Below, piece by piece: positions 1 to 16,484 of a DNA stretch of 64,000 nt. Made by a program: the position numbers and the translations under genes. The notes beneath the pieces were generated by a model that saw nothing but the letters and a program-made list of their open reading frames with translations, was not told the origin of the DNA and searched no databases. Position 1 is the stretch's first letter; the number at the start of each line of letters is the position of its first letter. The stretch covers positions 62,001 through 126,000 of the forward strand of contig JBCBSM010000002.1 of assembly GCA_039819165.1 (NCBI GenBank), in the 5' to 3' direction. The stretch is from Planctomycetota bacterium (GTDB lineage Bacteria > Planctomycetota > Phycisphaerae > Phycisphaerales > UBA1924).

Positions 1-668
1 TGCTGGCCCATCGCGTGGACGGCGTCCCGTTCCGCGTCCGCCGCACCAATCGCGTCGGACTCGGCACCACCACGGCCGCGCCGCGCAATGGCATCGACCC
101 GTGCGGATCCGACCTGCGGATGATCGTCGGCGGGGACGGTTATCTGGGCGGCGTCGCGCTGCCCGACGGCCGCACGGATTGGGCGGCGGCCGTCTCGCCA
201 GCGTGGCTGCGGCGGCACGGCTCGCCCGCCGCGCTCCTGCGTGCCATGGCCGCCCGGGCGGGCCTCGATCCGGCGAGCGTCCCGACCGGCCCCTGGCGGG
301 GCACGCCCACGCTCACGCGGTCCCGTCCCGCGCAGTCGGGCCGCGTGCTCTCGGTGGGCGACGCGGCGGGCTACGTCGAGCCGTTCACGGGCGAGGGCAT
401 GTCGTGGGCGTTGCTCTCGGCCGAGGCCGTCGTGCCGCACGCGCTGGCGTGCCTCGAGCACGACCCCGCCGCGGCCGCGTGGTCCCGCGAGCACCGCACG
501 CTGCTCGGCCGTGCACACCGGCGATGCCGGCGCACCGCGTTGCTCGTGCGGCGGCCTGCGCTCATCGGTGCCGGGGCTCGGCTCGCGGCCATCCGCCCCG
601 CCGTGGCGCGCCACCTCGAGGGCGCACTCAGCACGCACGCAACCTCCACGGCCAGGAGTTCGGCGTGA
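1..668 (+). CDS. FAD-dependent oxidoreductase, geranylgeranyl-reductase-like, C-terminal part only
   Basis: The reading frame is open from base 3 to the stop at 666-668, so the N-terminal half with the Rossmann FAD motif lies before the window. The visible part carries the second flavin motif GDAAGYVEPFTGEGMSWAL, typical of the geranylgeranyl reductase and tryptophan-halogenase-like flavoprotein group, where the Asp contacts the ribityl chain of FAD. The stop overlaps the GTG start of the type III polyketide synthase (GTGA at 665-668), so the two are very likely cotranscribed and the flavoprotein probably oxidises or reduces the polyketide or its isoprenoid partner. The substrate is not visible. 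The C-terminus is Arg/Ala-rich and probably disordered. Confidence 0.75.
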   Translation, partial: LAHRVDGVPFRVRRTNRVGLGTTTAAPRNGIDPCGSDLRMIVGGDGYLGGVALPDGRTDWAAAVSPAWLRRHGSPAALLRAMAARAGLDPASVPTGPWRGTPTLTRSRPAQSGRVLSVGDAAGYVEPFTGEGMSWALLSAEAVVPHALACLEHDPAAAAWSREHRTLLGRAHRRCRRTALLVRRPALIGAGARLAAIRPAVARHLEGALSTHATSTARSSA

Positions 669-1723
669 GCGCGACCATCGTCGGCATCGGCCTGGCAACC
701 CCCGGGCAGACCATCGCCCAGGATCGCGTGGCCGAGCTGATCGCACGCGCATCGGGCGCGAATGGCACGCGGGCGCGGGCGATAAGCACGCTCTACCGCA
801 ATTCGGGCGTGCGCTCACGGGGCATCGCGTCGGCGGCCTTCCACGAGGGCGACCTCGCCATCGCCCAGGCCGAGGGCACGGCCGAGCGGATGCGCCGCTA
901 CCACGAGCTCGCGCCCCCCATCGCCGCCCACGCGTGCACGACCGCGCTCGGCCGCGCCGGCGTGCGGCCAGACGGCGTCACCCATCTCATCACCGTCAGC
1001 TGCACCGGGCTGGCCTCGCCCGGGCTCGACATCGAGCTGATCCACCGGCTGGAGCTGCCAGCGAGCACCGAGCGCGTCAACGTCGGCTTCATGGGCTGCC
1101 ACGGCGCGCTCAACGGCCTGCGTGTAGCGCGGGCGCTCGCGGCATCGAGCGAGCACGCGGTGGTGCTGCTGTGCTGCGCCGAGCTGTGCTCGCTGCACTT
1201 CCAGGGCGGGCAGCCCGAGGGATCCGCCGTGGCCGACGCCCTCTTTGCCGACGGTGCGGCCGCCTGCGTCGTCCGCCGCGGCGGCGACGGTCCCGCGATC
1301 GCCCACTCCGAGGCCGTCCTGCTGCCCGACAGCCTCAGCGAGATGGCCTGGGACGTCGGACCCTCGGGCTTCCTCATGACGCTCTCGCCGCGCGTCCCCG
1401 ACCTGCTCAGCCGGCACGTGCCCGGCTGGGTCGATGGATTGCTCTCGGCTCGGGGCATGGCCCGCGGCGACATCGCCTCCTGGGCCATCCATCCCGGCGG
1501 GCCCAGGGTGCTGCAACGCGTCGCCGGTGCGCTCGGCCTCGACCCGTCGGCGACCGAGGCGTCGGCTGACGTGCTCGGCCAGCACGGCAACATGTCGTCG
1601 GCCACCATCCTCTTCATCATCGACAGGATGCTGCGCGCGGGCGCCCGCCTGCCCCTGCTGGCGATGGCCTTCGGCCCCGGACTGACGGGCGAAGCCGTGC
1701 TGCTCGCGGACGATGCGCGGTAG
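665..1723 (+). CDS. type III polyketide synthase (chalcone/stilbene synthase family)
   Basis: This 352-residue protein has the usual length for a homodimeric type III PKS, which condenses malonyl-CoA onto an acyl-CoA starter. The catalytic triad is in place: Cys145 in GFMGCHGALNGLR, His276 in WAIHPGG and Asn309 in GNMSSATILF. GTG at 665 was chosen because it overlaps the upstream stop and the protein then begins SATIVGIGLATPG, the standard family N-terminus; the frame is open upstream but reads as an Arg-rich shadow of the flavoprotein gene. The bacterial relatives make alkylresorcinols, alkylpyrones or naphthalenes, but the product cannot be told from sequence alone. It is paired with the flavoprotein gene just upstream. 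Confidence 0.9.
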   Translation: MSATIVGIGLATPGQTIAQDRVAELIARASGANGTRARAISTLYRNSGVRSRGIASAAFHEGDLAIAQAEGTAERMRRYHELAPPIAAHACTTALGRAGVRPDGVTHLITVSCTGLASPGLDIELIHRLELPASTERVNVGFMGCHGALNGLRVARALAASSEHAVVLLCCAELCSLHFQGGQPEGSAVADALFADGAAACVVRRGGDGPAIAHSEAVLLPDSLSEMAWDVGPSGFLMTLSPRVPDLLSRHVPGWVDGLLSARGMARGDIASWAIHPGGPRVLQRVAGALGLDPSATEASADVLGQHGNMSSATILFIIDRMLRAGARLPLLAMAFGPGLTGEAVLLADDAR

Positions 1724-1734
1724 AGGCGGATCAC

Positions 1735-4700
1735 CTAGTCCGCGTCAAGGTCCGCCGGAATCAGGATGAGCCGCACGTTGACGAACTCGTAGTCGTCCTT
1801 GTCCGAGCCCGGCCGCGCGACCGACTCGATCTCCAGCACGTTGCCACCCGCCCGCAGCAGCCGCAGCGGGACGGGGATCGACTGCTCCCCGAAGCTGCCG
1901 TCGCGGGGCGACTGCCGCAGCGTCCCCACCTCTTCGCCGTTGATCCGCAGCGGGTTGGGGGCCTGCGAGCCCTTCACGAACAGCCGCAGTTCGGCCCCCC
2001 GCACGCGCAGCCGCCGGTGCTCGGGCGTGATCTCGAAGGGCAGCTCGAGCACCAGCCCCTCGCTCCGACGCTGGAACTGGCTGTTGATGCGGCCGCTGAA
2101 CTCATCGTTGCCCAGGTGGTGCACCTCGGGCTGGCGTTCGAGCACCACCACGTACGGATCGATGGGCTCGAGGCGGAACACGAGCCTTCGCTCGAGCTCG
2201 ACGTCCCGTTGCGAGACGTTGAGCGCCCCGGGCGTGTATCCGGGCGCCGATGCCGTCACCGCCGCGTTGTCGGGGATGTCGTCGAAGGCCAACTCGAAGC
2301 CGCCCCGGTCGTCGGTCCGCATGCTTGCGTCGGCGACGCCCTCCAGGTCCAGCCGCACGAGTGCGCCGGCGATCGGCTCGTCGTCCGAGGCATCGAGCAC
2401 CACGCCGATGAGCGCGTAGCGATGCTCGATCGCCTCGGGCAGCGACAGGTCGAGGTCGCCGAAGCGCATCGCCGCGGGCGGCGCGATTCCCGCGAGCACG
2501 TCGCTCGCGACGTCGGGCGTGGCCTCGGACGAGGCGTGCGACCACTCGTCCATCTCGTCCGCCGTTGCGCCCGCCGCGGGCCGGACGCGGTCCAGCGATG
2601 CGGTCGAGCCACCGGTGAGGGGTCGATCCGGCAGGAGGTCCAGGGATGCCATCGCGTCGGCGGGCGACCAGTCGGCCTCCGCGATCGATGCGTCGGCGTC
2701 GGCGGCATCTGGCACGCCCAGTGCAATCTCAAAGTCGCCCAGCGGCGGCGGGGGCAGATCGGCGGAGGCCATCGGCCAAGCCGCCATCGTGCTCGCCTCC
2801 TGGACGGAGCGTTCCGCCTCGAGCGCCCCGGCACGAACTCCCGCCGACGCCGCGTCGAGCCGCGCGATCCGGGGACCCGCCTGGGCGACAGATGCCACGT
2901 CCGGCCGTGCAGCCACGGCGCCGCGATCGACAGACGGCGCATCGATGGCCGGCTCGGCCGCCGACGCCACCGCAGACGGATCTCCGGGCAGCGCGAGGTC
3001 GACGCCAATGGGCGCCAGGCCGGCCGCATCGGGGAGATCGCGTGCGTCCGCTCGGGCATGAGCAGATGCGCCGTCAGCGTCCCGTGTCGCAGGACCGGCG
3101 GCGGCAAGGGGCATGGTTAGTGTCGATCCTGCATCCGCCGCGGCGATCTGCACCGGTTGCGTCGCGCCGCCGTCCGCCGCCGCCCGCGCCGGGGCGACGG
3201 CATCCGTGGCAGATGGCCGCTCGCCGGCGCGCAGCGCGGGCTCGGATGCGTCCGACGCCGCCGGCGCGGACGACTCGGGCAGCGACAGGCTCTCGGTCGC
3301 ACCGGCCGGGGCGGGCACGTCGTCGCCGAGCGCCGCGACCGAGACGGCCGACGACGGCGACGACGACGCGTCCATCGCGGATCGCGTGGGCGCCAGCTCG
3401 CCGGAGGGCCCGGCCATCGCCGCCGCCTCCAGCACGGCCGCACTCGCCGCCACGGGACTTGGCACCGACGGCGCGGCGGCGGCGGGCACGCTGGCCTGCT
3501 GCAGGGCGGCCGCTTCCGCGCCCGGTCGCAGCTGGTCGGCCGCCGCCTGCCGCACCGCCGAGGAGGACAGCGCCACGCGGACGCCCGCCTCGTCGCCCGC
3601 GAGGTCGCCCACCGTCGGCGGCACCGTGAGCGCCGCCAGCAGCGCCATGATGCCGCCGTGAATCAAGAGCGACAGCAGCACGCACTTGGCCATCAGCCCC
3701 AGCGTCGCGAGTCGTCCCTGCCAGCGTGCGGTCGTCGCCAGACGCCGCAGCAACGCGAGCAGCAGCACGAGCGCCAGCGCCAGCAGGATCCACGGCAGCA
3801 GGCCCAGCAGATCGGCCCGCGACTCGACGCGTGCGAGGTAGACCTCCCGCGATACGGCTCGCCGCAGCGCGAGCGCGTCGCCCTCCGCCGATGCGAACAG
3901 CACCGCGAAGCCCTCGAGGGCCAGCACCGGCGAACGCTCGTTCCGCGACGAGTTGATCGACGCGCCCAGGTTCTGCACGGCACCGACGGCGAACGCCGCG
4001 CCATCGCCGCTCCGCCGCGCGCGGTACAGGTCGAAGCCGCCCAGGCCCGACGCCCGGTCCGAGGCGAGGTACACGAAGTCGCCCGCCGGCGACACCGCGG
4101 GATCGCGATCGTCCGCCGCGCTCGACAGACGATCGACGCGCAGGACGCCATCCGCGTCGCCGTGCGAATAGATGTCAAATCCGGTGGGCGCTGCGCCCTC
4201 GTTCGGAGTCTCGCTCGGGCGATCCGACGCGAACAGCAGCGTCGCCGAGCCGCCCGCGGCGTGCGGATGCGGATCGGACTCGTCGTGCCGGCTGTTGATC
4301 GGCTCGGGCAGGGGCGCGGGCGGCATCCAGCCATCGCCGCCCAGCCGCGCACGCCAGAGGTCCAGCCCCCCCACGCCGCCGGGCCGATCACTCGCGAAGT
4401 AGAGCTCCTCCCCGTCCGGCGAGGTCGCCGGCGCCAGTTCGTTGTCGGGCGTGTTCAGCGCCGTGATCGGCTGGAGCGGCGACCACCGATCGCCGGCTCG
4501 GCGCGCAAAAAAGAGGTCGGTATCACCCCTGGGCGTTCGGGCGGAGGCGTACAGCGTGCCGCCATCGGGCGAGAGCGCGATGTCGATGACGGCCGCGTCC
4601 TCGAGCCCGGGCAGCGGCTCGGCAGGCCGCCAGAGCACGTCGCGGAGCGGGGCGTCGCCCGCGTCGGCCCGGATGGCGGCGTCGTCCGTGTAGAACGACC

Positions 4701-4797
4701 GCCGCTCGATGCCCAGCCACCAGTAGCCCGCGGCCGCGGCGCTCAGCACCGCGCCCAGCGCCAGGGCGTACAGCAGGATGCGGCGGGCCATCGGCAT
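1735..4797 (-). CDS. PD40 beta-propeller protein with TonB-like membrane segment and C-terminal carboxypeptidase-regulatory-like domain
   Basis: A 1020-residue protein. TM1 is at about 5-24. Residues 45-325 hold at least four WD40-like/PD40 blades (ATSPDGEELYFASDRPGG, PAVSPAGDFVYLASDR), as in TolB. TM2 is at 330-350 and is followed by a basic loop. TM3 is at 372-392 and contains S376-x3-H380, the motif that TonB needs to couple to ExbB/ExbD. A roughly 400-residue Ala-rich linker follows, then a CarboxypepD-regulatory-like beta fold at about 795-880 and a last beta-rich domain. Topology by the positive-inside rule is propeller outside, loop inside, linker outside. The gene follows exbD. ATG 4797 has GGGGTGAG upstream; GTG 4806, overlapping the exbD stop, is the alternative. 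A role as TonB analogue is inferred; no classical TonB C-terminal domain is seen. Confidence 0.7.
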   Translation of the reverse strand: MPMARRILLYALALGAVLSAAAAGYWWLGIERRSFYTDDAAIRADAGDAPLRDVLWRPAEPLPGLEDAAVIDIALSPDGGTLYASARTPRGDTDLFFARRAGDRWSPLQPITALNTPDNELAPATSPDGEELYFASDRPGGVGGLDLWRARLGGDGWMPPAPLPEPINSRHDESDPHPHAAGGSATLLFASDRPSETPNEGAAPTGFDIYSHGDADGVLRVDRLSSAADDRDPAVSPAGDFVYLASDRASGLGGFDLYRARRSGDGAAFAVGAVQNLGASINSSRNERSPVLALEGFAVLFASAEGDALALRRAVSREVYLARVESRADLLGLLPWILLALALVLLLALLRRLATTARWQGRLATLGLMAKCVLLSLLIHGGIMALLAALTVPPTVGDLAGDEAGVRVALSSSAVRQAAADQLRPGAEAAALQQASVPAAAAPSVPSPVAASAAVLEAAAMAGPSGELAPTRSAMDASSSPSSAVSVAALGDDVPAPAGATESLSLPESSAPAASDASEPALRAGERPSATDAVAPARAAADGGATQPVQIAAADAGSTLTMPLAAAGPATRDADGASAHARADARDLPDAAGLAPIGVDLALPGDPSAVASAAEPAIDAPSVDRGAVAARPDVASVAQAGPRIARLDAASAGVRAGALEAERSVQEASTMAAWPMASADLPPPPLGDFEIALGVPDAADADASIAEADWSPADAMASLDLLPDRPLTGGSTASLDRVRPAAGATADEMDEWSHASSEATPDVASDVLAGIAPPAAMRFGDLDLSLPEAIEHRYALIGVVLDASDDEPIAGALVRLDLEGVADASMRTDDRGGFELAFDDIPDNAAVTASAPGYTPGALNVSQRDVELERRLVFRLEPIDPYVVVLERQPEVHHLGNDEFSGRINSQFQRRSEGLVLELPFEITPEHRRLRVRGAELRLFVKGSQAPNPLRINGEEVGTLRQSPRDGSFGEQSIPVPLRLLRAGGNVLEIESVARPGSDKDDYEFVNVRLILIPADLDAD

Positions 4798-4802
4798 GCG
4801 AC

Positions 4803-5216
4803 TCACCCCAGGGGCACGGTATCGAGGAACGGCTGCTGCACGCCGGCGGCCTTGCACACGTCCAGCACCCGCACGATGGACCCGTAGGCGATGTCCTTGT
4901 CGCCCCGCACCGACACCTTCTGGTCGGGATTGACCTCCACCGCGTCGGCCACCAGCGTGCGGAGTTCCTCGAGCGTGATCGCCTGGCCGCCCACGATGAT
5001 CCGGCCCGCGCCGTCCACGTTGATGATGATCTCGCGGAGCATGGCGCTGATCGGGCCGGCGGCCTCGGCCTCGGGCAGCGCGATCTCCAGTTCACGCTCG
5101 CTCTGCTGGTAGGTCGTCGCCACCAGGAAGAAGATCAGCAGCAGGAACACCATATCGATGATCGGCGTGATCTCGATCGACGGCGCATCCTCGTCGGCCT
5201 TGTTGCGGATGAGCAC
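4803..5216 (-). CDS. exbD: ExbD/TolR-family biopolymer transport protein
   Basis: A 137-residue inner-membrane protein with one N-terminal TM and a periplasmic domain, the standard ExbD/TolR plan. The TM carries the essential proton-path aspartate as Asp21 in TPIIDMVFLLLIFF. Together with ExbB it forms a proton-driven motor that energises a TonB- or TolA-type partner. GTG 5216 is the only usable start between the exbB stop (5219) and the TM; it gives a two-base intergenic gap. The gene sits between exbB and the PD40/TonB-like gene, which suggests that product is its working partner. Confidence 0.9.
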   Translation of the reverse strand: MLIRNKADEDAPSIEITPIIDMVFLLLIFFLVATTYQQSERELEIALPEAEAAGPISAMLREIIINVDGAGRIIVGGQAITLEELRTLVADAVEVNPDQKVSVRGDKDIAYGSIVRVLDVCKAAGVQQPFLDTVPLG

Positions 5217-5218
5217 GG

Positions 5219-5974
5219 CTACGCCCCCGCCGCCACCGCTTGGCGTGCGGGCTCGCCGTTCTCGTGCGACGCGACGTGCGGCGGTTCCGCGGCGCCGGCC
5301 GGCTCGAGCACGTGCCGCTCGACGAACTCGACGGCGGCCCGGTCCAGCTCCCGCGCCAGGCGATCGACCTTCGACGCCAGCAGGTGGTAGAACACGATGG
5401 TGGGAATCGCCACGAGCAGGCCCGCGGCCGTGGTGATCATCGCCTCGTAGATGCCGCCGGCGAGCAGCTCGGCCTTGCCCAGGCTCTCGCCCGACGACGC
5501 CACCGTCTGGAACGCGCGGATCATGCCGAAGATCGTGCCGGTCAGCCCCAGCAGCGGCGCAACGGCCGCGACGACCGTGAGCGTGCGCAGCCGCTTGCGC
5601 ATGAGGTAGACCTCGTGCTCGCCCGACGACGCGAGGTGCTTCTCGACGACCTCGGGCGCGTGCCCCAGCTTCTCGATGCCCGCTGCCAGCACCCGCGCCA
5701 GCGGGCTGTCGTGCTTCGTGCAGTGCTCGAGCGCATCGCGGCGGCTGCGGGCCCGGCCCAGGATCTCGTGCAGCTTGGCCTCGAGGCCCGGCGGCACCAC
5801 GCGTCGCAGCCGCAGCACCGACAGCCGCTCGGCCACCACGGCCACGACCACCAGCGAGCACAGCACGATGGGGATCATCATGATCCCGCCCTTGACGGCC
5901 AGATCGAACACCGACGGGGCGGCCGCGGCCTGGCCCGTCGCCGCGCCTACGAGCGTGGCAATCGCCTGCATCAT
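5219..5974 (-). CDS. exbB: MotA/TolQ/ExbB proton channel family protein
   Basis: A 251-residue protein with three TMs at about 29-48, 130-151 and 173-195 and a large cytoplasmic loop after TM1, as in ExbB/TolQ. The conserved TM2-TM3 region is clear (PLLGLTGTIFGMIRAF, then EAMITTAAGLLVAIPT). It should form the pentameric stator around the ExbD dimer. The start ATG 5974 overlaps the stop of the upstream TPR gene (ATGA), implying translational coupling. An in-frame ATG directly follows at 5971, so the exact start is uncertain by one codon. The C-terminal tail after TM3 is Ala/Glu-rich. Confidence 0.9.
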   Translation of the reverse strand: MMQAIATLVGAATGQAAAAPSVFDLAVKGGIMMIPIVLCSLVVVAVVAERLSVLRLRRVVPPGLEAKLHEILGRARSRRDALEHCTKHDSPLARVLAAGIEKLGHAPEVVEKHLASSGEHEVYLMRKRLRTLTVVAAVAPLLGLTGTIFGMIRAFQTVASSGESLGKAELLAGGIYEAMITTAAGLLVAIPTIVFYHLLASKVDRLARELDRAAVEFVERHVLEPAGAAEPPHVASHENGEPARQAVAAGA

Positions 5975-8900
5975 CAGCCTCCCGATCCGCCGGGGCCCGC
6001 GATGGCGGCGAGCCGCTCGCCCGCGGCCTGGGCCCATGGGCTCTCCGCGAAGCGTTCGCGGACCGCGCGATACTGCGCCCGCGCCTCGCCGACCTTGTCC
6101 ATCGATTCGAAGCAGCGGCCCGCCTCGTACAGCGCCGCGGCGCTCCACGTGGGCGAGGCGTACAGGATGTCCACACGCAGCAGCTCGCGGACGGCCTCGT
6201 CGAACTCGCCGAGCGCGAACAGGCACTCGCCGAGCTGGAACTGCGCGCGAGCGGCGGTCTCGCCGTCGTGCCGCTCGGTGACCGCCCGGTAGTGCGCGAT
6301 CGCCTCGCGGTGCTCGCCGGCGTTCTCCCGGGCCCAGCCCAGGCCGAACTCCGCCCGGAACCACTGCGGGCTCTTGGCATGCCTCGACCGGTGGTCCTCG
6401 TATGCACGCCGGCTGGCCCGCCAGTCCTGGGCCGCGGCGTGCGCCTCGCCGAGGCGGAGCAGCGCCGCCTCGTGCAGGTCCCGCGAAGCCTCGTCGGCCA
6501 GCACGATTCCGAACGCGGCGGCCGCCGGCTTGCCCCGGCCCAGCGCCAGCTGGGATTCGCCCAGCACCATTGCCGCCGGGGCCTTAAGCGATCCCAGCTC
6601 GCAGCGGGGTTCGTCGAGCAGCGCGACCACGCGGCGGTGATCGCCCAGCTGGTACTCGCACCACGCCAGCTTGTAGAGGATCGACGGGCACAACTCGGCG
6701 TCGAGGGCGTCGTGCGTCAGCGCCCCGCGGAGCGTCTCGGCGGCGGCATCGAACTGCTTGGCGTCGATCAGCATGTCGGCCAGGTCGAGCGCGGCCCGCC
6801 CGCCGATGGCGTCGCCCCGCCCGGCCAGCCGCTCGAACAGCCGTCGCGCGCCCGCGTCCTCGCCCGTGGCCCGCAGGCTGCCGCCCAGCTCGTAGAAGTA
6901 CAGCTCGCCCACGTCGCTCTCGACGGCCGGCGCGTCGTGGCCCCGGGCCAGCTCGATGGCGTCCCCGTGCGCACCCAGGCGAGCGAGCGCGATCACCCGC
7001 CAGGTCGTCGCCTCGCCGTCGAGGCCCTCGAGCAAGCCGGCCGCCGCACGTGGATCGCCGGCGTCGAGCAGCGCGCGGGCCCGCTCGACCGCGAACGACC
7101 GCGCGAAGCCCGCGTCGCCCGACGCCGCCGCACGCTCGTACAGGTCGGCGGCCTCCGCCGGATCGCCCGCGCGGGCGGCGATCCCCGCGAGGTGCCGCAG
7201 GGCGTACGGCTCGAACTTCGAGCCCTCGTGCTCGTCGAGCAACCCCCGCAGCGCCGCCCGGGCGCTGGTGTCGTCGCCCAGGGCCAGGTGCGCCTGGGCC
7301 ACCTCGAATCGGGCGTGTGCCCCGTGCACGCCGCCGGCGTGGTCCTCGAGCACCCGCCCGAAGTCGCCGAGCGCTTCCCGGGGCCGCTCGCTCCGCGCGT
7401 ACGCAAGGCCGCGCTTCATCAGGGCGTCGCCGGCGGACTCGTCCCCATCATCCGCGGAATCGAGGTAGCCATCGAAGGCCTCGATCGCCGCGTCCCAGTC
7501 GCCCCGTTCGAAGGCGATCTCGCCCCGCGCGAGCAGGGCCGGCAGGAAGGCCTCGTCCGCATCGCCGCCCGACGCCACGCGGGCAAGATACGTCTCGGCC
7601 TCGTCGGCGCGACCGAGCTCCCGCAGGCTCAGTCCGAGCCGATAGCTCGCGCGGCGGCCCAGCTCACCGTCTTCGTCGGCCAGCGGTTGCAGCACGCCGG
7701 CGGCGCGCTCGTGGTCGCCCTGCCGGAAGAGGGCCTCGCCCAGCACGAAGCCCGCCTGCCCCGCCAATGGGTGGTCGCCGTGCGCGCGGACGAAGGCCTC
7801 GGCGTGCGACGCCGCCCGATCGATGCGGCCTTCGGCCAGCGCGAGCGACGCCATCGCGTACAGCGCGTCGGGCGCCATCGCGTGGTCGGGGTGGGCCCGG
7901 CGGAACCGATCGAACGCCCGCGTCGCGTCGTCCCCCCGGCCCGACCGCTCGAGCGCGACGCCCAGGTCGTATCGCGCCTCGGCGATCAGGTTGCTCTCGT
8001 CGAAGGCGTCCGCGAACTCAGCCAGCCGCTGCGCCGCGTCGTCGGCGCGGCCCCGGCGGAGGTCGGCCTTGGCCCGCCAGTAGTCGATGTCGTCGGCGAG
8101 GTCCGTGGTGGCGTCCCGCGCCGCACGCCGCAGGGCCTGGGCGGCCTCGTCGGCATCGCCCATCTCGAGCAGCGCAAGGCCCAGCTCGTACTGCACCCGC
8201 GATCGGCGGTAGCCGCCCTCGCGCTCGGACAACGTCCGCAGGATCTCGGTCGATTCCGCCGGCCGCCCGGCCGAGCGCAGCAGACCGCCAAGCCCGAGCA
8301 GCGCCTCGGGCGTCGTCCGCTCGCCACCGCGACGGATGGCCCGCTCGAATGCGGCGATGGCGTCGTCGGTACGGCCGGCATCGCGGAGGGCATAGGCCTG
8401 CCGCACGCGCGCCAGGTCGCCGATCTCGTCGCGGCCGCGCGGGGGCTGGGCGGCCTCGAAGTAGCCGGCCGCCCGGGCGTGGTCGGCCGGGGTGCGCGCG
8501 ACCGCTTGCTGCGCTAGCCCGGCAAAGAATGACGCCCGCCTGCGCAGGGCCGCATCGCCGTCGTCGCGCGAGAGCCGGCCCGCGGCATCGTCGTAGGCCT
8601 CCACCGCTGGCCAATGCCGTCCGGCGCGGTGCAGGCTCTCGACGCGGAGCGACGCGATGCTCGCCCACGAGCCGTGGCCCTCGTGCCGCAGCGCGTCGCC
8701 CGCCGCCTCGGCGGCGTCGGCATACCGCTTCATGCGGAAGAGCACGTGCACGCGGAGCACGTCGGCGTCGGCCCGGAACTCGAATCGTCGCGGCCGCTCG
8801 ATGGCCTCCAGTGCGCGGAGCGCCGGCTCGTCGCGGCCCAGGCGATAGCTCGCCACCGCGAGCCCATAGCGGGCCTGGTCGCGGTCGCCCGGATCCCCCA

Positions 8901-9063
8901 GGCTCCGCAGGGCGGCCTCGTACTCGGCCGACGCCTCGGCGTGCAACCCCCGCTGCAGCAACGCGTTGGCGGTGCGCAGGGCGCGATCGCCCGCGGACGG
9001 CTGCCCGAGGACGCGGTGCGGCGATGCGAGCAGGACCAGAACGACCGCCAGGATCGCGCGCAT
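5974..9063 (-). CDS. large secreted tetratricopeptide-repeat protein
   Basis: A 1029-residue protein with a short signal peptide (AILAVVLVLLASP core) and then almost continuous TPR-like helical pairs from about residue 25 to the end. Units such as ARYGLAVASYRLGRDEPAL and AQFQLGECLFALGEFDEAV repeat at about 34-37 residues. The repeats resemble those of YbgF/CpoB and BamD, which act in the periplasm beside Tol-Pal or Bam. It is first in a unit with ExbB, ExbD and the PD40/TonB-like protein, so a periplasmic scaffold for that motor is likely. ATG 9063 was chosen for the signal peptide and the GTGGAGAG just upstream; the open frame continues to 9261 but is Arg-rich and implausible. Confidence 0.8.
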   Translation of the reverse strand: MRAILAVVLVLLASPHRVLGQPSAGDRALRTANALLQRGLHAEASAEYEAALRSLGDPGDRDQARYGLAVASYRLGRDEPALRALEAIERPRRFEFRADADVLRVHVLFRMKRYADAAEAAGDALRHEGHGSWASIASLRVESLHRAGRHWPAVEAYDDAAGRLSRDDGDAALRRRASFFAGLAQQAVARTPADHARAAGYFEAAQPPRGRDEIGDLARVRQAYALRDAGRTDDAIAAFERAIRRGGERTTPEALLGLGGLLRSAGRPAESTEILRTLSEREGGYRRSRVQYELGLALLEMGDADEAAQALRRAARDATTDLADDIDYWRAKADLRRGRADDAAQRLAEFADAFDESNLIAEARYDLGVALERSGRGDDATRAFDRFRRAHPDHAMAPDALYAMASLALAEGRIDRAASHAEAFVRAHGDHPLAGQAGFVLGEALFRQGDHERAAGVLQPLADEDGELGRRASYRLGLSLRELGRADEAETYLARVASGGDADEAFLPALLARGEIAFERGDWDAAIEAFDGYLDSADDGDESAGDALMKRGLAYARSERPREALGDFGRVLEDHAGGVHGAHARFEVAQAHLALGDDTSARAALRGLLDEHEGSKFEPYALRHLAGIAARAGDPAEAADLYERAAASGDAGFARSFAVERARALLDAGDPRAAAGLLEGLDGEATTWRVIALARLGAHGDAIELARGHDAPAVESDVGELYFYELGGSLRATGEDAGARRLFERLAGRGDAIGGRAALDLADMLIDAKQFDAAAETLRGALTHDALDAELCPSILYKLAWCEYQLGDHRRVVALLDEPRCELGSLKAPAAMVLGESQLALGRGKPAAAAFGIVLADEASRDLHEAALLRLGEAHAAAQDWRASRRAYEDHRSRHAKSPQWFRAEFGLGWARENAGEHREAIAHYRAVTERHDGETAARAQFQLGECLFALGEFDEAVRELLRVDILYASPTWSAAALYEAGRCFESMDKVGEARAQYRAVRERFAESPWAQAAGERLAAIAGPGGSGG

Positions 9064-13854: not shown

Positions 13855-16113
13855 CTACCGGCCGCGGCGGAGTTCCCGCCGGTCCGAACGGTCCGACCGA
13901 TCCGTGTAGCCAGGGCGATCGGCCATCTTCTCGCGCAACTCGAGCACCTTCTTGTAGGCCTCCTCGATCGACACCTTGCCGGCACCGACGGCCGCGTGCA
14001 GTTCGGCAAGAGCCGCGTCATAACGCTCGCGCGACAGCCGGGCACGATCCGGCTCTGCATCTACCTCGTCGTGGAGACGCCTTGCGGCTTCGAGGGCCCG
14101 CTCGTCGCCAACAACGACCACCGAATTCGAGCTCTCGTCTGCCTTCACATGAGCACGGATGCCCCTCGCCTCGAGAAGCTCCCGCATCCGACGCGCCGCG
14201 TTCGCTGCGGCGGCGTGTCTCAGATGCAGCAGCACGACGCGCTCCGTCCGGGACTCGAGGCGCTTCTTCTCCGCCTCTCGCCTCGACAGCTCGCCCGCCA
14301 CGACGGCGTCCTCGATCTTCCGCTCGATTGCCCTCCGCCGCTCGCGCCGCGGCTCCTCGGGCTGGGTGTCGCTCAGCCCGAACAGGTGCCCGCGGAGGTC
14401 GGCCAGCGCCCGATCGGCCTCGAACTCGGAGATGCGGCCGCGTTCCACGGCCTCGCCGAAGCCCCGCTCGATCTCCAGGTAGCGTTCGCGGATCTCGGCC
14501 ATCTCGCGTTCCCGCTTCTCGAGGTCTCCGAGCCGTCGCCGGAGATCCACGATCTCGCGCTCGGCCTCCACCTCGGAGATCGCGCCGGCGTCCGCGGCCC
14601 GCTCGATCTCCTCGGCAGCCCGCTCGTACTGCTCGCGGACGGAGCGCTGCCGCGCGGACTGCGCGCGACGCTCGGCGTCTATCTCCCGGCGTCGTTCGAT
14701 CAGCTTCCGCTCGCCTTCGCGCGGCGAGAGCTGCTCCTCGTCGACCGCCCGCTTGACGCGACGCTCGGCCTCGGCATAGTCCCGCTCGAGGGCGCGGACC
14801 TCGCGCTCGGCGTCGCGAGAGAGCCTCCCGCGGAGCGTGGAGAGCCTGCGGGAAGCGTCCTGGCGCGACAGCTCATCGGCGGCGACGGCTCGCTTGGTCT
14901 CGTCATATGCCCGACGTGCGTCGGCCAGGGCGCGCTCGTCGTACGCCCGCCGCGCGTCGGCCAGCGTGCGCTCGCCGCCCGATGCGCCGCGGAGCGCCTC
15001 CATCATCGCGCGGGCTTGCTCGCTGCTGAGTTCGCCCTCGCGGACGGCCGCCCGCAGCCGCTGCCCCACGGCGTCGAAGTCCTGGGCGTACGCGACGCCC
15101 ACGGGCAGCAGGGCAACGCCCGCGGCGAGCGCGCCGGCGAGCATCCAGCGGGGCGTCGCTTTGGTTCGATCCTTCATGATCATCCGGAACCTCCGTTCGA
15201 GCGGACCGCCGGTGTGCATGGCGCACGCCATGGGTGGGGCCGACGCCGGCGGGCGGTGCGCCGGAGCGGCCAGGAACTCGGCGACCCGCACGAGCGCGCC
15301 CGCGTAGGGCTTGCCGCCCGGACGCAGGCAACGCAGCACGAGCGCGTCGCAGCAGATCTCCTCGTTCGTGCGCAGCCCGCGGCGGGCGAGCCATGCGATG
15401 GGGTTCCACCAGCACAGCACGCACGCGAGCCACTCCAGCCAGCGGACGACGTGGTCCCTGCGGCGGATGTGCGCCAACTCGTGGGCCAGCACCCAGCGGA
15501 GTTCGGCCTCGCTCAGTTCGCTCCGCAGGCCCGCGGGCACGACCAGCGTCACCCGGCCGCCCGCCCACCAGACCAGCGGCGAGAGCCGCGCGTCGACGAT
15601 GCGGACCGCCGGCGGGCGGCGCAGGCCCAGGCGGCGGGCGAGGTCGCGGACCATTGCGCGCGTGCCGGCATCGGCCTCGCGCGATGTGCGACCGAGCAGG
15701 CGATCGAAGCGACGCACGCGGACGAGCGACCCGGCCGCCACCGCGGCGGACCCCGCGCACCATAGCCCAAGCAGCACGGCGCTCCATGGGACCGACGCGG
15801 ATGCTCCGCCGACTTCGGTGACCTCTGGCGGCGAAACCGTGGCTGCATCCGCGGGCTCGTAGGCGAGCGGCGCGGCGGCCATGGGCAGCGGGTCGATCAT
15901 CGCCGCCTCGGCCGGCGGGGCTGAGGCCTGCGGCACGGGGATCAGCGGCAGCGTCAGCACCGGCGGCGTCACCAGCTTGACCAGCACCACCACCCACAGC
16001 ACGTGGGCGAGCGCGGGGGCGCGGCCGCTGCGGTGCACGGCCAGCGCCGCGAGCGCGATGCACGCCGAGACCGCCAGGTTGCTCGCCAGCGCACGCAGCA
16101 GCAGATCGATCAC
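13855..16113 (-). CDS. M56 family (BlaR1/MecR1-like) membrane metallopeptidase with tandem helical repeats
   Basis: A 752-residue protein. The N-terminal membrane domain has several TMs and the gluzincin motif HELAH at 211-215, plus the downstream NEEICCDA glutamate, as in BlaR1. A TM follows near 325. Instead of a penicillin-binding sensor domain, the exposed part carries about seven copies of a G-x-[LIV]-S-x-x-[EQ]-A helical unit (GELSSEQARAMMEALR, GAISEVEAEREIVDLRRRL, GRISEFEADRALADLR). Near 622-688 lies a secretin-N/NolW-like stretch (VKADESSNSVVVVGDERAL). GTG 16113 overlaps the blaI stop (GTGA). By analogy it senses an envelope signal and cleaves the BlaI repressor; the signal is unknown. 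Confidence 0.75.
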   Translation of the reverse strand: MIDLLLRALASNLAVSACIALAALAVHRSGRAPALAHVLWVVVLVKLVTPPVLTLPLIPVPQASAPPAEAAMIDPLPMAAAPLAYEPADAATVSPPEVTEVGGASASVPWSAVLLGLWCAGSAAVAAGSLVRVRRFDRLLGRTSREADAGTRAMVRDLARRLGLRRPPAVRIVDARLSPLVWWAGGRVTLVVPAGLRSELSEAELRWVLAHELAHIRRRDHVVRWLEWLACVLCWWNPIAWLARRGLRTNEEICCDALVLRCLRPGGKPYAGALVRVAEFLAAPAHRPPASAPPMACAMHTGGPLERRFRMIMKDRTKATPRWMLAGALAAGVALLPVGVAYAQDFDAVGQRLRAAVREGELSSEQARAMMEALRGASGGERTLADARRAYDERALADARRAYDETKRAVAADELSRQDASRRLSTLRGRLSRDAEREVRALERDYAEAERRVKRAVDEEQLSPREGERKLIERRREIDAERRAQSARQRSVREQYERAAEEIERAADAGAISEVEAEREIVDLRRRLGDLEKREREMAEIRERYLEIERGFGEAVERGRISEFEADRALADLRGHLFGLSDTQPEEPRRERRRAIERKIEDAVVAGELSRREAEKKRLESRTERVVLLHLRHAAAANAARRMRELLEARGIRAHVKADESSNSVVVVGDERALEAARRLHDEVDAEPDRARLSRERYDAALAELHAAVGAGKVSIEEAYKKVLELREKMADRPGYTDRSDRSDRRELRRGR

Positions 16114-16484
16114 GCCTCACCGCCTTCCAGGATGCGACGCAGCCGATCGATCTCGGCCCGCGAGAGCCTCTTGTGGTCCATCAGGTGCGTGAGGAAGGGC
16201 GCTAGCGACCCGCCGGTCAGCTTGTCGGCCAGCGATTCGAGCTGCGCGCCGGCGTAGGCCTCCCGCGACAGCGTGGGCGCGAACAGGTGCACCGCCAATC
16301 CGCGATCCCGTGCGACGAAGCCCTTGTCCTCAAGCCGCTGGAGCAGCCGCTGCACCGTGCCGTGCTGCGGCCGCCGCTCGTCGGGGTAGAGCCGCTCGCG
16401 GATCTGCCGGGCGGTCAGCGGCTGCTCGGCCCAGAGCAGTTCCATGATCGCCAGTTCCGAGTTGGCCAGCGTCGCGGGCTTCAT
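16110..16484 (-). CDS. BlaI/MecI/CopY-family transcriptional repressor
   Basis: A 124-residue winged-helix repressor matching the family length. The N-terminal HTH reads SELAIMELLWAEQPLTARQI and GTVQRLLQRLEDKGFVAR, followed by a C-terminal dimerisation helix region. It is the first gene of a two-gene unit with the M56 peptidase, whose GTG overlaps its stop. Two perfect palindromes lie 35-75 bp upstream of the ATG and are the natural operators, so the unit should repress itself until the peptidase cleaves the repressor. Target genes elsewhere are likely but not visible here. Confidence 0.9.
   Translation of the reverse strand: MKPATLANSELAIMELLWAEQPLTARQIRERLYPDERRPQHGTVQRLLQRLEDKGFVARDRGLAVHLFAPTLSREAYAGAQLESLADKLTGGSLAPFLTHLMDHKRLSRAEIDRLRRILEGGEA

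Follow-up and report, generated by a model that had tools for sequence, protein, structure and literature searches.

A four-gene unit on the minus strand of a 64,000-nucleotide stretch from a Planctomycetota bacterium (assembly GCA_039819165.1, contig JBCBSM010000002.1, positions 62,001 to 126,000; this whole stretch is called the window, and its own coordinates are used below) probably encodes a force transducer that is powered by an ExbBD motor and works in the manner of TonB or TolA. At the level of sequence, support comes from the linkage to exbB and exbD, a histidine and a serine within a transmembrane segment (TM), a D-box-like strand, intact motor residues, a β-propeller, and varied tips; force transmission and the physiological role of the transducer are what we infer. 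The original prediction, made from the letters of the window, had proposed a TonB analogue fused to a PD40 propeller, and this interpretation is supported by the present analysis. The D-box, the neighbouring BlaI/M56 genes and an α/α toroid as the commoner tip of the family go beyond it.

The gene unit and its homologues

The genes follow one another in the order TPR protein, ExbB, ExbD, and transducer, separated by gaps or overlaps of few bases, and coordinates and Pfam matches bear out the tight unit that had been predicted. The large TPR protein (5974..9063, about 1029 residues), whose start reads like a signal peptide, matches TPR_16 (E-value 8.2e-55), the ExbB/TolQ-like protein (5219..5974) matches MotA_ExbB (6.9e-30), and the ExbD/TolR-like protein (4803..5216) matches ExbD (1.9e-27). 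The transducer P0001 (1735..4797, 1020 residues) consists of TM1, a PD40 propeller, TM2, TM3, a linker, and a β-domain tip, and hydropathy places its three membrane segments at residues ~7-27, ~330-350, and ~366-390. In the Pfam scan of P0001, PD40 at residues 114-149 (3.9e-12) and CarboxypepD_reg at 797-860 (7.2e-8, 33.1 bits at a cut-off of 32.3) were found, with no further domain over cut-off. The host genome comprises 3.14 Mb in 35 contigs and is 100% complete.

Homologues were sought in Planctomycetota genomes with a profile of TM2 and TM3 only. It was run on 248 genomes of the class, with a match in 51, and on 392 of the phylum, with a match in 34, of which 28 lie outside the class. The 84 sequences read comprise all 54 class places (the window and L041 among them), 20 of the 28 from elsewhere in the phylum (those retrieved with wide flanks), a family set, and the window; the other 8 of the 28 were left out of the counts. 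From 13 family-level loci, L043 and L046 were dropped, their open reading frame (ORF) having no TM2-TM3 match and L046 ending at a contig end. The 11 remaining family-level homologues had been reached through ExbD, and their nearness to exbBD is not counted as evidence. With ExbD as query, 30 of the 31 genomes of the family gave a match, 10 of them (the host genome included) carrying a close ExbD (E < 1e-30), and public genomes gave four close loci plus one distant proteobacterial match.

Homologues found by TM2-TM3 alone, with no exbBD in the query, have exbB and exbD beside them on the same strand in 69 of 72 cases, and the three others start near contig ends, at distances of 276, 760, and 2 bases. 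Counted over all homologues, motor genes adjoin 80 of 83, and a TPR gene lies upstream in 74 of 80 loci. The layout described for the window protein recurs next to exbBD in these homologues, in agreement with the original prediction. A plasmid search with the whole transducer as query gave five Bacteroidota records, matching the propeller part only.

Putative docking residues and motor genes

TM3 (residues 366-390; 3628..3702) carries Ser376 and His380 at the positions given in the original prediction, and both fall within the third membrane segment. His380 is the best-conserved of 131 profile positions (83/84), and Ser376 is kept in 77 of 84 sequences; in a set thinned to identities below 60% the figures are 54/55 and 49/55, respectively. 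Homologues in exbBD context without one of these two residues, which would have spoken against a TonB-like role, are therefore rare. In twelve transducers (that of L009 being cut at a contig end), L366, L368, C372, S376, and H380 are invariant within TM3, and four of these five are spaced by four, placing them on one helix face. In TonB, Ser16 and His20 contact Ser34 and Trp38 of ExbB, and the histidine is essential (PMC12215075; articles cited by PMC number are used here from excerpts). Since the TonB-type histidine is named as essential there, the conservation pattern would be the one expected if His380 were the key residue. Cys372, kept in 79 of 84 sequences and second to His380 among the profile columns, is situated one turn ahead of Ser376 and is no part of the TonB motif.

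The D-box of TonB (residues 43-54) alternates between hydrophobic and hydrophilic residues and is captured by the ExbD dimer (PMC10907165; PMC10771500), and TolA and many vWA transducers carry a similar "motor box" (PMC12204202). In the window transducer, a D-box-like strand, V406-R-V-A-L410 (3568..3582), is located at +26 to +30 from His380, and its equivalent in E. coli TonB, I45-M49, at +25 to +29 from His20. A D-box-like pattern occurs 20-40 residues past the histidine in 65 of 84 sequences, in 45 of them at exactly +26, whereas shuffling of the same residues (1000 trials) gave a mean of 8.8 and a maximum of 19. The TonB-like topology predicted for TM3 agrees with the charge bias, lysine and arginine being more frequent on the N-terminal flank of TM3 than on the C-terminal one in 61 of 84 sequences, with 12 ties, as is expected for a linker on the outside.

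The adjoining genes possess what is required of an ExbB-ExbD or TolQ-TolR motor, that is, the MotA_ExbB and ExbD domains together with the pore aspartate, threonine, and proline. The proton-carrying aspartate of ExbD is conserved in 81 of 81 aligned sequences (one gap); the pore threonine of ExbB is kept in 79/81 and 81/81 and the TM proline in 79/81. The TM1 serine of ExbB, counted among transducer-linked ExbBs only, is present in 80 of 80 aligned sequences (one gap). All of these residues are kept in the window proteins.

Propeller, linker and tip

The block of TM, propeller, and TM that had been placed ahead of TM3 is confirmed by hydropathy and by the PD40 match. The propeller region comprises residues ~60-323 (3829..4620), where Pfam recognizes one PD40 stretch and reading of the sequence suggests five repeats; five relatives that were scanned contain 2-5 PD40 stretches. 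In the model of the N-terminal part (mean pLDDT 68.9), the propeller blocks reach 66-94. The propeller is recognized by a profile in 83 of the 84 sequences; it is missed in L098, where the called ORF starts only ~120 residues before TM3. In L092, L093, L095, L108, and L109, two propeller matches enclose a toroid-type match in addition to the toroid of the tip, and L093 has a third propeller match (837-1077) ahead of its TM3 (near 1139).

Downstream of the D-box-like strand, the linker (residues ~411-790; 2428..3567) is rich in alanine (29%) and proline (11%), and residues 396-800 include 113 alanines among 405. Its length in the family ranges from 206 to 818 residues with a median of 415 (n = 80). 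The tip (residues 780-1020; 1738..2460; model pLDDT 84.9) consists of a CarboxypepD_reg-like domain followed by a second β-domain, so that the alanine-rich linker and the carboxypeptidase-regulatory-like domain (CRD) of the original prediction are both found in their place. Fold matches of the tip model, with low overall TM-scores, are to rhamnogalacturonan lyase, transthyretin-like domains of carboxypeptidases, and carbohydrate-binding modules; that the tip binds carbohydrate would be a guess from the model.

The window transducer possesses β-domains only, whereas the commonest tip among its relatives is a squalene-cyclase-like α/α toroid. Among the 84 sequences, 18 have β-domains of the window type only and one has the same twice, 39 have the toroid type only, and 15 have both; a further six combine a toroid tip with a second toroid match before TM3, L098 shows a toroid match, and four have no tip call, all of which run into a contig end. 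For the toroid, Pfam gives a hint of squalene-hopene cyclase that, in the five relatives scanned, exceeds the cut-off only in L149 (7.5e-8).

Comparison with known systems and alternative explanations

With TonB and TolA and their ExbBD or TolQR motors, the unit shares the Ser-x3-His of the TM, the D-box-like strand, the linker, and the motor genes. With respect to the SHLS motif, the window protein has Leu387 at the third place and Thr391 for the last serine. In contrast to the single N-terminal TM of the TonB family, the window protein contains three segments, of which the third is the docking TM, a periplasmic propeller, and a linker of ~380 residues; a TonB_C (up to E 1) or TolA domain is not found in it. 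In the host genome, no match was obtained for Plug, TonB_C (E <= 0.001), or TolB_N, searches that were each positive in three of 14 control genomes; a role as TonB would call for TonB-dependent receptors, and their Plug domain is thus missing there. The transducer is therefore TonB/TolA-like in its proposed working, yet it is no member of that family, as it has neither the end domain nor the single-TM layout. Within the class, 38 of 51 genomes with the unit show no TonB_C match; its presence in 13 of 51 such genomes versus 82 of 197 others corresponds to a Fisher p of 0.037 with kinship ignored, and no conclusion is drawn from it.

Closer relatives in kind are the vWA force transducers of bacteria of the Planctomycetes-Verrucomicrobia-Chlamydiae group (Williams-Jones et al., 2025, PMC12204202). 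As described in the excerpts of that article, these share the SHLS-type TM, the motor-box strand, a disordered linker, a non-TonB C-terminal domain, and TPR and tolQ/tolR-like neighbours, but they have a single TM, their C-terminal domain is of the vWA type, and two tolR-like genes accompany them. The present unit, in contrast, carries TM1, propeller, and TM2 ahead of the docking TM, one ExbD, and toroid and/or β-domain tips, and P0001 shows no vWA match up to E 1. It is therefore not a vWA transducer but a sibling in kind, with another front and another tip. This also qualifies the claim of the original prediction for a new transducer layout: a non-TonB tip on an SHLS-type TM was already known from the vWA transducers. 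The same genome does encode a vWA transducer (ORF L054:4175-5341), whose VWA_3 match (1.3e-6) exceeds the cut-off and which lies close to ExbB and two ExbDs (L054:4175-8169). It shows SxxxH and, at the offset found in the window transducer, the D-box-like strand VEFAVM; its gene is located upstream of exbB, an order unlike that in the excerpts of PMC12204202. Among the matches listed in a literature search, mostly outside subscription journals and preprints, no description of the layout of the unit, including PD40 with ExbB, was found.

A replacement of Tol-Pal, in which a TolQ/TolR-like motor, a CpoB-like TPR protein, and a TolB-like propeller fused to a TolA-like transducer would pull a tether during division, is unlikely, even though several observations speak for it. 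In Foldseek, TolB (1c5k, E 3.8e-12) heads the matches to the N-terminal model, the NCBIfam models tolQ and tolR outscore those of exbB and ExbD for the motor genes (all under their cut-offs), and the TPR protein matches NCBIfam YbgF over its cut-off. Moreover, the genome is without a TolB_N match, it has two OmpA-domain places besides one adjoining a MotA_ExbB place, and Planctomycetes are said to have a Tol-Pal system that is largely reduced (PMC8871954, excerpts). However, the rows shown by VIA-align for the same model are mainly glycoside-hydrolase propellers, which come first (Z 18-21, best 21.1), although the absence of a family from that list does not exclude it. Many of them belong to families 43 and 62, which we take to be five-bladed. 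TolB is six-bladed (PMC12204202), and with Foldseek and VIA-align in disagreement and TolB_N absent, a strict TolB fusion was not adopted. Furthermore, a housekeeping division system would be expected in more of the class than 51 of its 248 genomes, and no OmpA or Pal match is found in the four proteins of the unit, so that neither TolB_N in the genome nor OmpA in the unit would assign it to Tol-Pal. Given this patchy distribution, which extends to the genus level, the unit more likely has an accessory role in the envelope than one in division.

Nor is it probable that the transducer protein is static, serving the ExbBD motor as scaffold or gate; in that case propeller, TPR protein, and tip would fasten the motor to the wall, and histidine and serine would serve for positioning without any pulling. 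The long and variable linker would suit such a tether, and so would the best NCBIfam model of the propeller, PorE (5.1e-29), although at 101 bits versus a cut-off of 600 the match is far too low to identify P0001 as PorE. The type IX secretion motor is GldL/GldM. PorE combines TPR, a five-bladed propeller, a CRD, and OmpA_C in an outer-membrane lipoprotein that is proposed as the anchor of the type IX system to the wall (PMC7192894, excerpts). The kinds of domain TPR, propeller, and CRD recur in the window unit, spread over two proteins, but no OmpA match is found in P0001 or elsewhere in the unit, no lipoprotein anchor is seen, and the transducer is anchored in the inner membrane with a motor-docking TM. 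A tether, however, needs neither a near-invariant TM histidine nor a D-box-like strand at the spacing of TonB.

Neighbouring BlaI and M56 genes

Comparison of flanking genes revealed one recurrent neighbour, in 14 loci. Among 20 loci viewed in wider stretches, 18 carry the genes of a BlaI-type repressor and an M56 peptidase upstream of the unit and on its strand, and in these 18 relatives the end of the M56 gene is separated from the TPR frame by 5-303 bases. The 20 loci had been picked from class and family; six had a previously known M56-like flank, and the pair occurs in 12 of the other 14. In the window, the M56 (BlaR1-like) peptidase (13855..16113, minus strand) likewise adjoins a BlaI/MecI-type repressor with a Penicillinase_R match (16110..16484, minus strand), as in BlaR1/BlaI pairs. 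What differs from such pairs is that in the relatives the genes head an ExbBD unit and that the M56 proteins have long C-terminal extensions, the one of the window with a Secretin_N match near its C-terminus. The latter protein is the sole M56 match over cut-off in the genome. An SNF2 helicase-like gene (by reading of the sequence), a further plus-strand frame, and a tRNA-Lys lie between pair and unit in the window. The simplest account is an ancestral BlaI-M56-TPR-ExbB-ExbD-transducer unit that was split in the lineage of the window. A loose pattern for a BlaI-operator-like palindrome has three matches in the window, none of them near the unit.

The BlaI/M56 pair directly upstream and a single M56 protein with Secretin_N might point to a signalling device, in which propeller or tip senses a ligand and the protease reads motor-driven movement or tension and frees BlaI-repressed genes, but this is very improbable, as the pair may merely control expression, is split from the unit in the window, and is missing at L179 and L183.

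Proposed mechanism and significance

Several observations weigh against the force-transducer reading. One homologue has tyrosine for the histidine (L097), and seven, L097 among them, have alanine for the serine; the search profile, moreover, was built from sequences bearing both residues, which makes relatives without them less findable and lets the conservation figures lean upwards. The strict D-box pattern is missed by 19 of 84 sequences. The ExbB position equivalent to Trp38, assigned from a weak alignment, is never tryptophan (L 52, V 19, M 6, F 2, I 1, and one gap in 81), so that the docking surface or pocket would differ from that of E. coli. In the N-terminal model, the TM part is of low confidence. 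The unit is patchy even in the genus, where G075, 98% complete, has no match to the TM2-TM3 profile. The BlaI/M56 comparison covered the class only, two of 20 loci (L179 and L183, one of them in the genus of the window) are without the pair, and in the window a distance of 4.8 kb separates the pair from the unit downstream of it. In L097:5058-10292, the sole homologue read that has lost the histidine, ExbB and ExbD are still adjoining, which makes this locus a test case supplied by nature.

If the unit is a force transducer, TM3 would dock on TM1 of ExbB through His380 and Ser376, and the periplasmic dimer of ExbD would capture the D-box strand. The long linker could then span the periplasm to the wall or the outer membrane, where the tip (the CarboxypepD_reg and carbohydrate-binding-like pair in the window, an α/α toroid elsewhere) might grip a polymer or protein, and proton flow would pull the gripping tip. 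The TM1-propeller-TM2 block would lie above the motor on the periplasmic side and serve there as a scaffold or clutch, with the TPR protein or material of the wall as its probable binding partner. The BlaI/M56 pair probably sets expression; under such control, the machine would be made upon perturbation of the envelope.

It is an even question whether the unit represents a further class of transducers for 5:2 motors across the Planctomycetota, characterized by a propeller on two extra TMs, TonB-like docking, exchangeable tips, and induction by BlaI/M56. The case for and against seems equally balanced for the tips of such a class, i.e., an α/α toroid, a CRD with a carbohydrate-binding-like domain, or both, being moved against the envelope. 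In planctomycetes without recognizable TonB receptors or TolB, the unit is a candidate for a proton-powered machine across the envelope. The motor-docking module, consisting of TM histidine and serine and the D-box, appears to be separable from the end domain of TonB or TolA, which suggests that the same coupling is used on several tips. The histidine, the D-box, and the aspartate of ExbD offer clean sites for point mutations with which to address non-TonB force transmission, and the BlaI/M56 link suggests an inducing signal.

On the other side of the transducer gene, a gene at window 101-1723 on the plus strand reads, from its sequence, like a chalcone/stilbene synthase (type III polyketide synthase). 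It is convergent with the transducer gene, and its end is 11 bases from the transducer stop.

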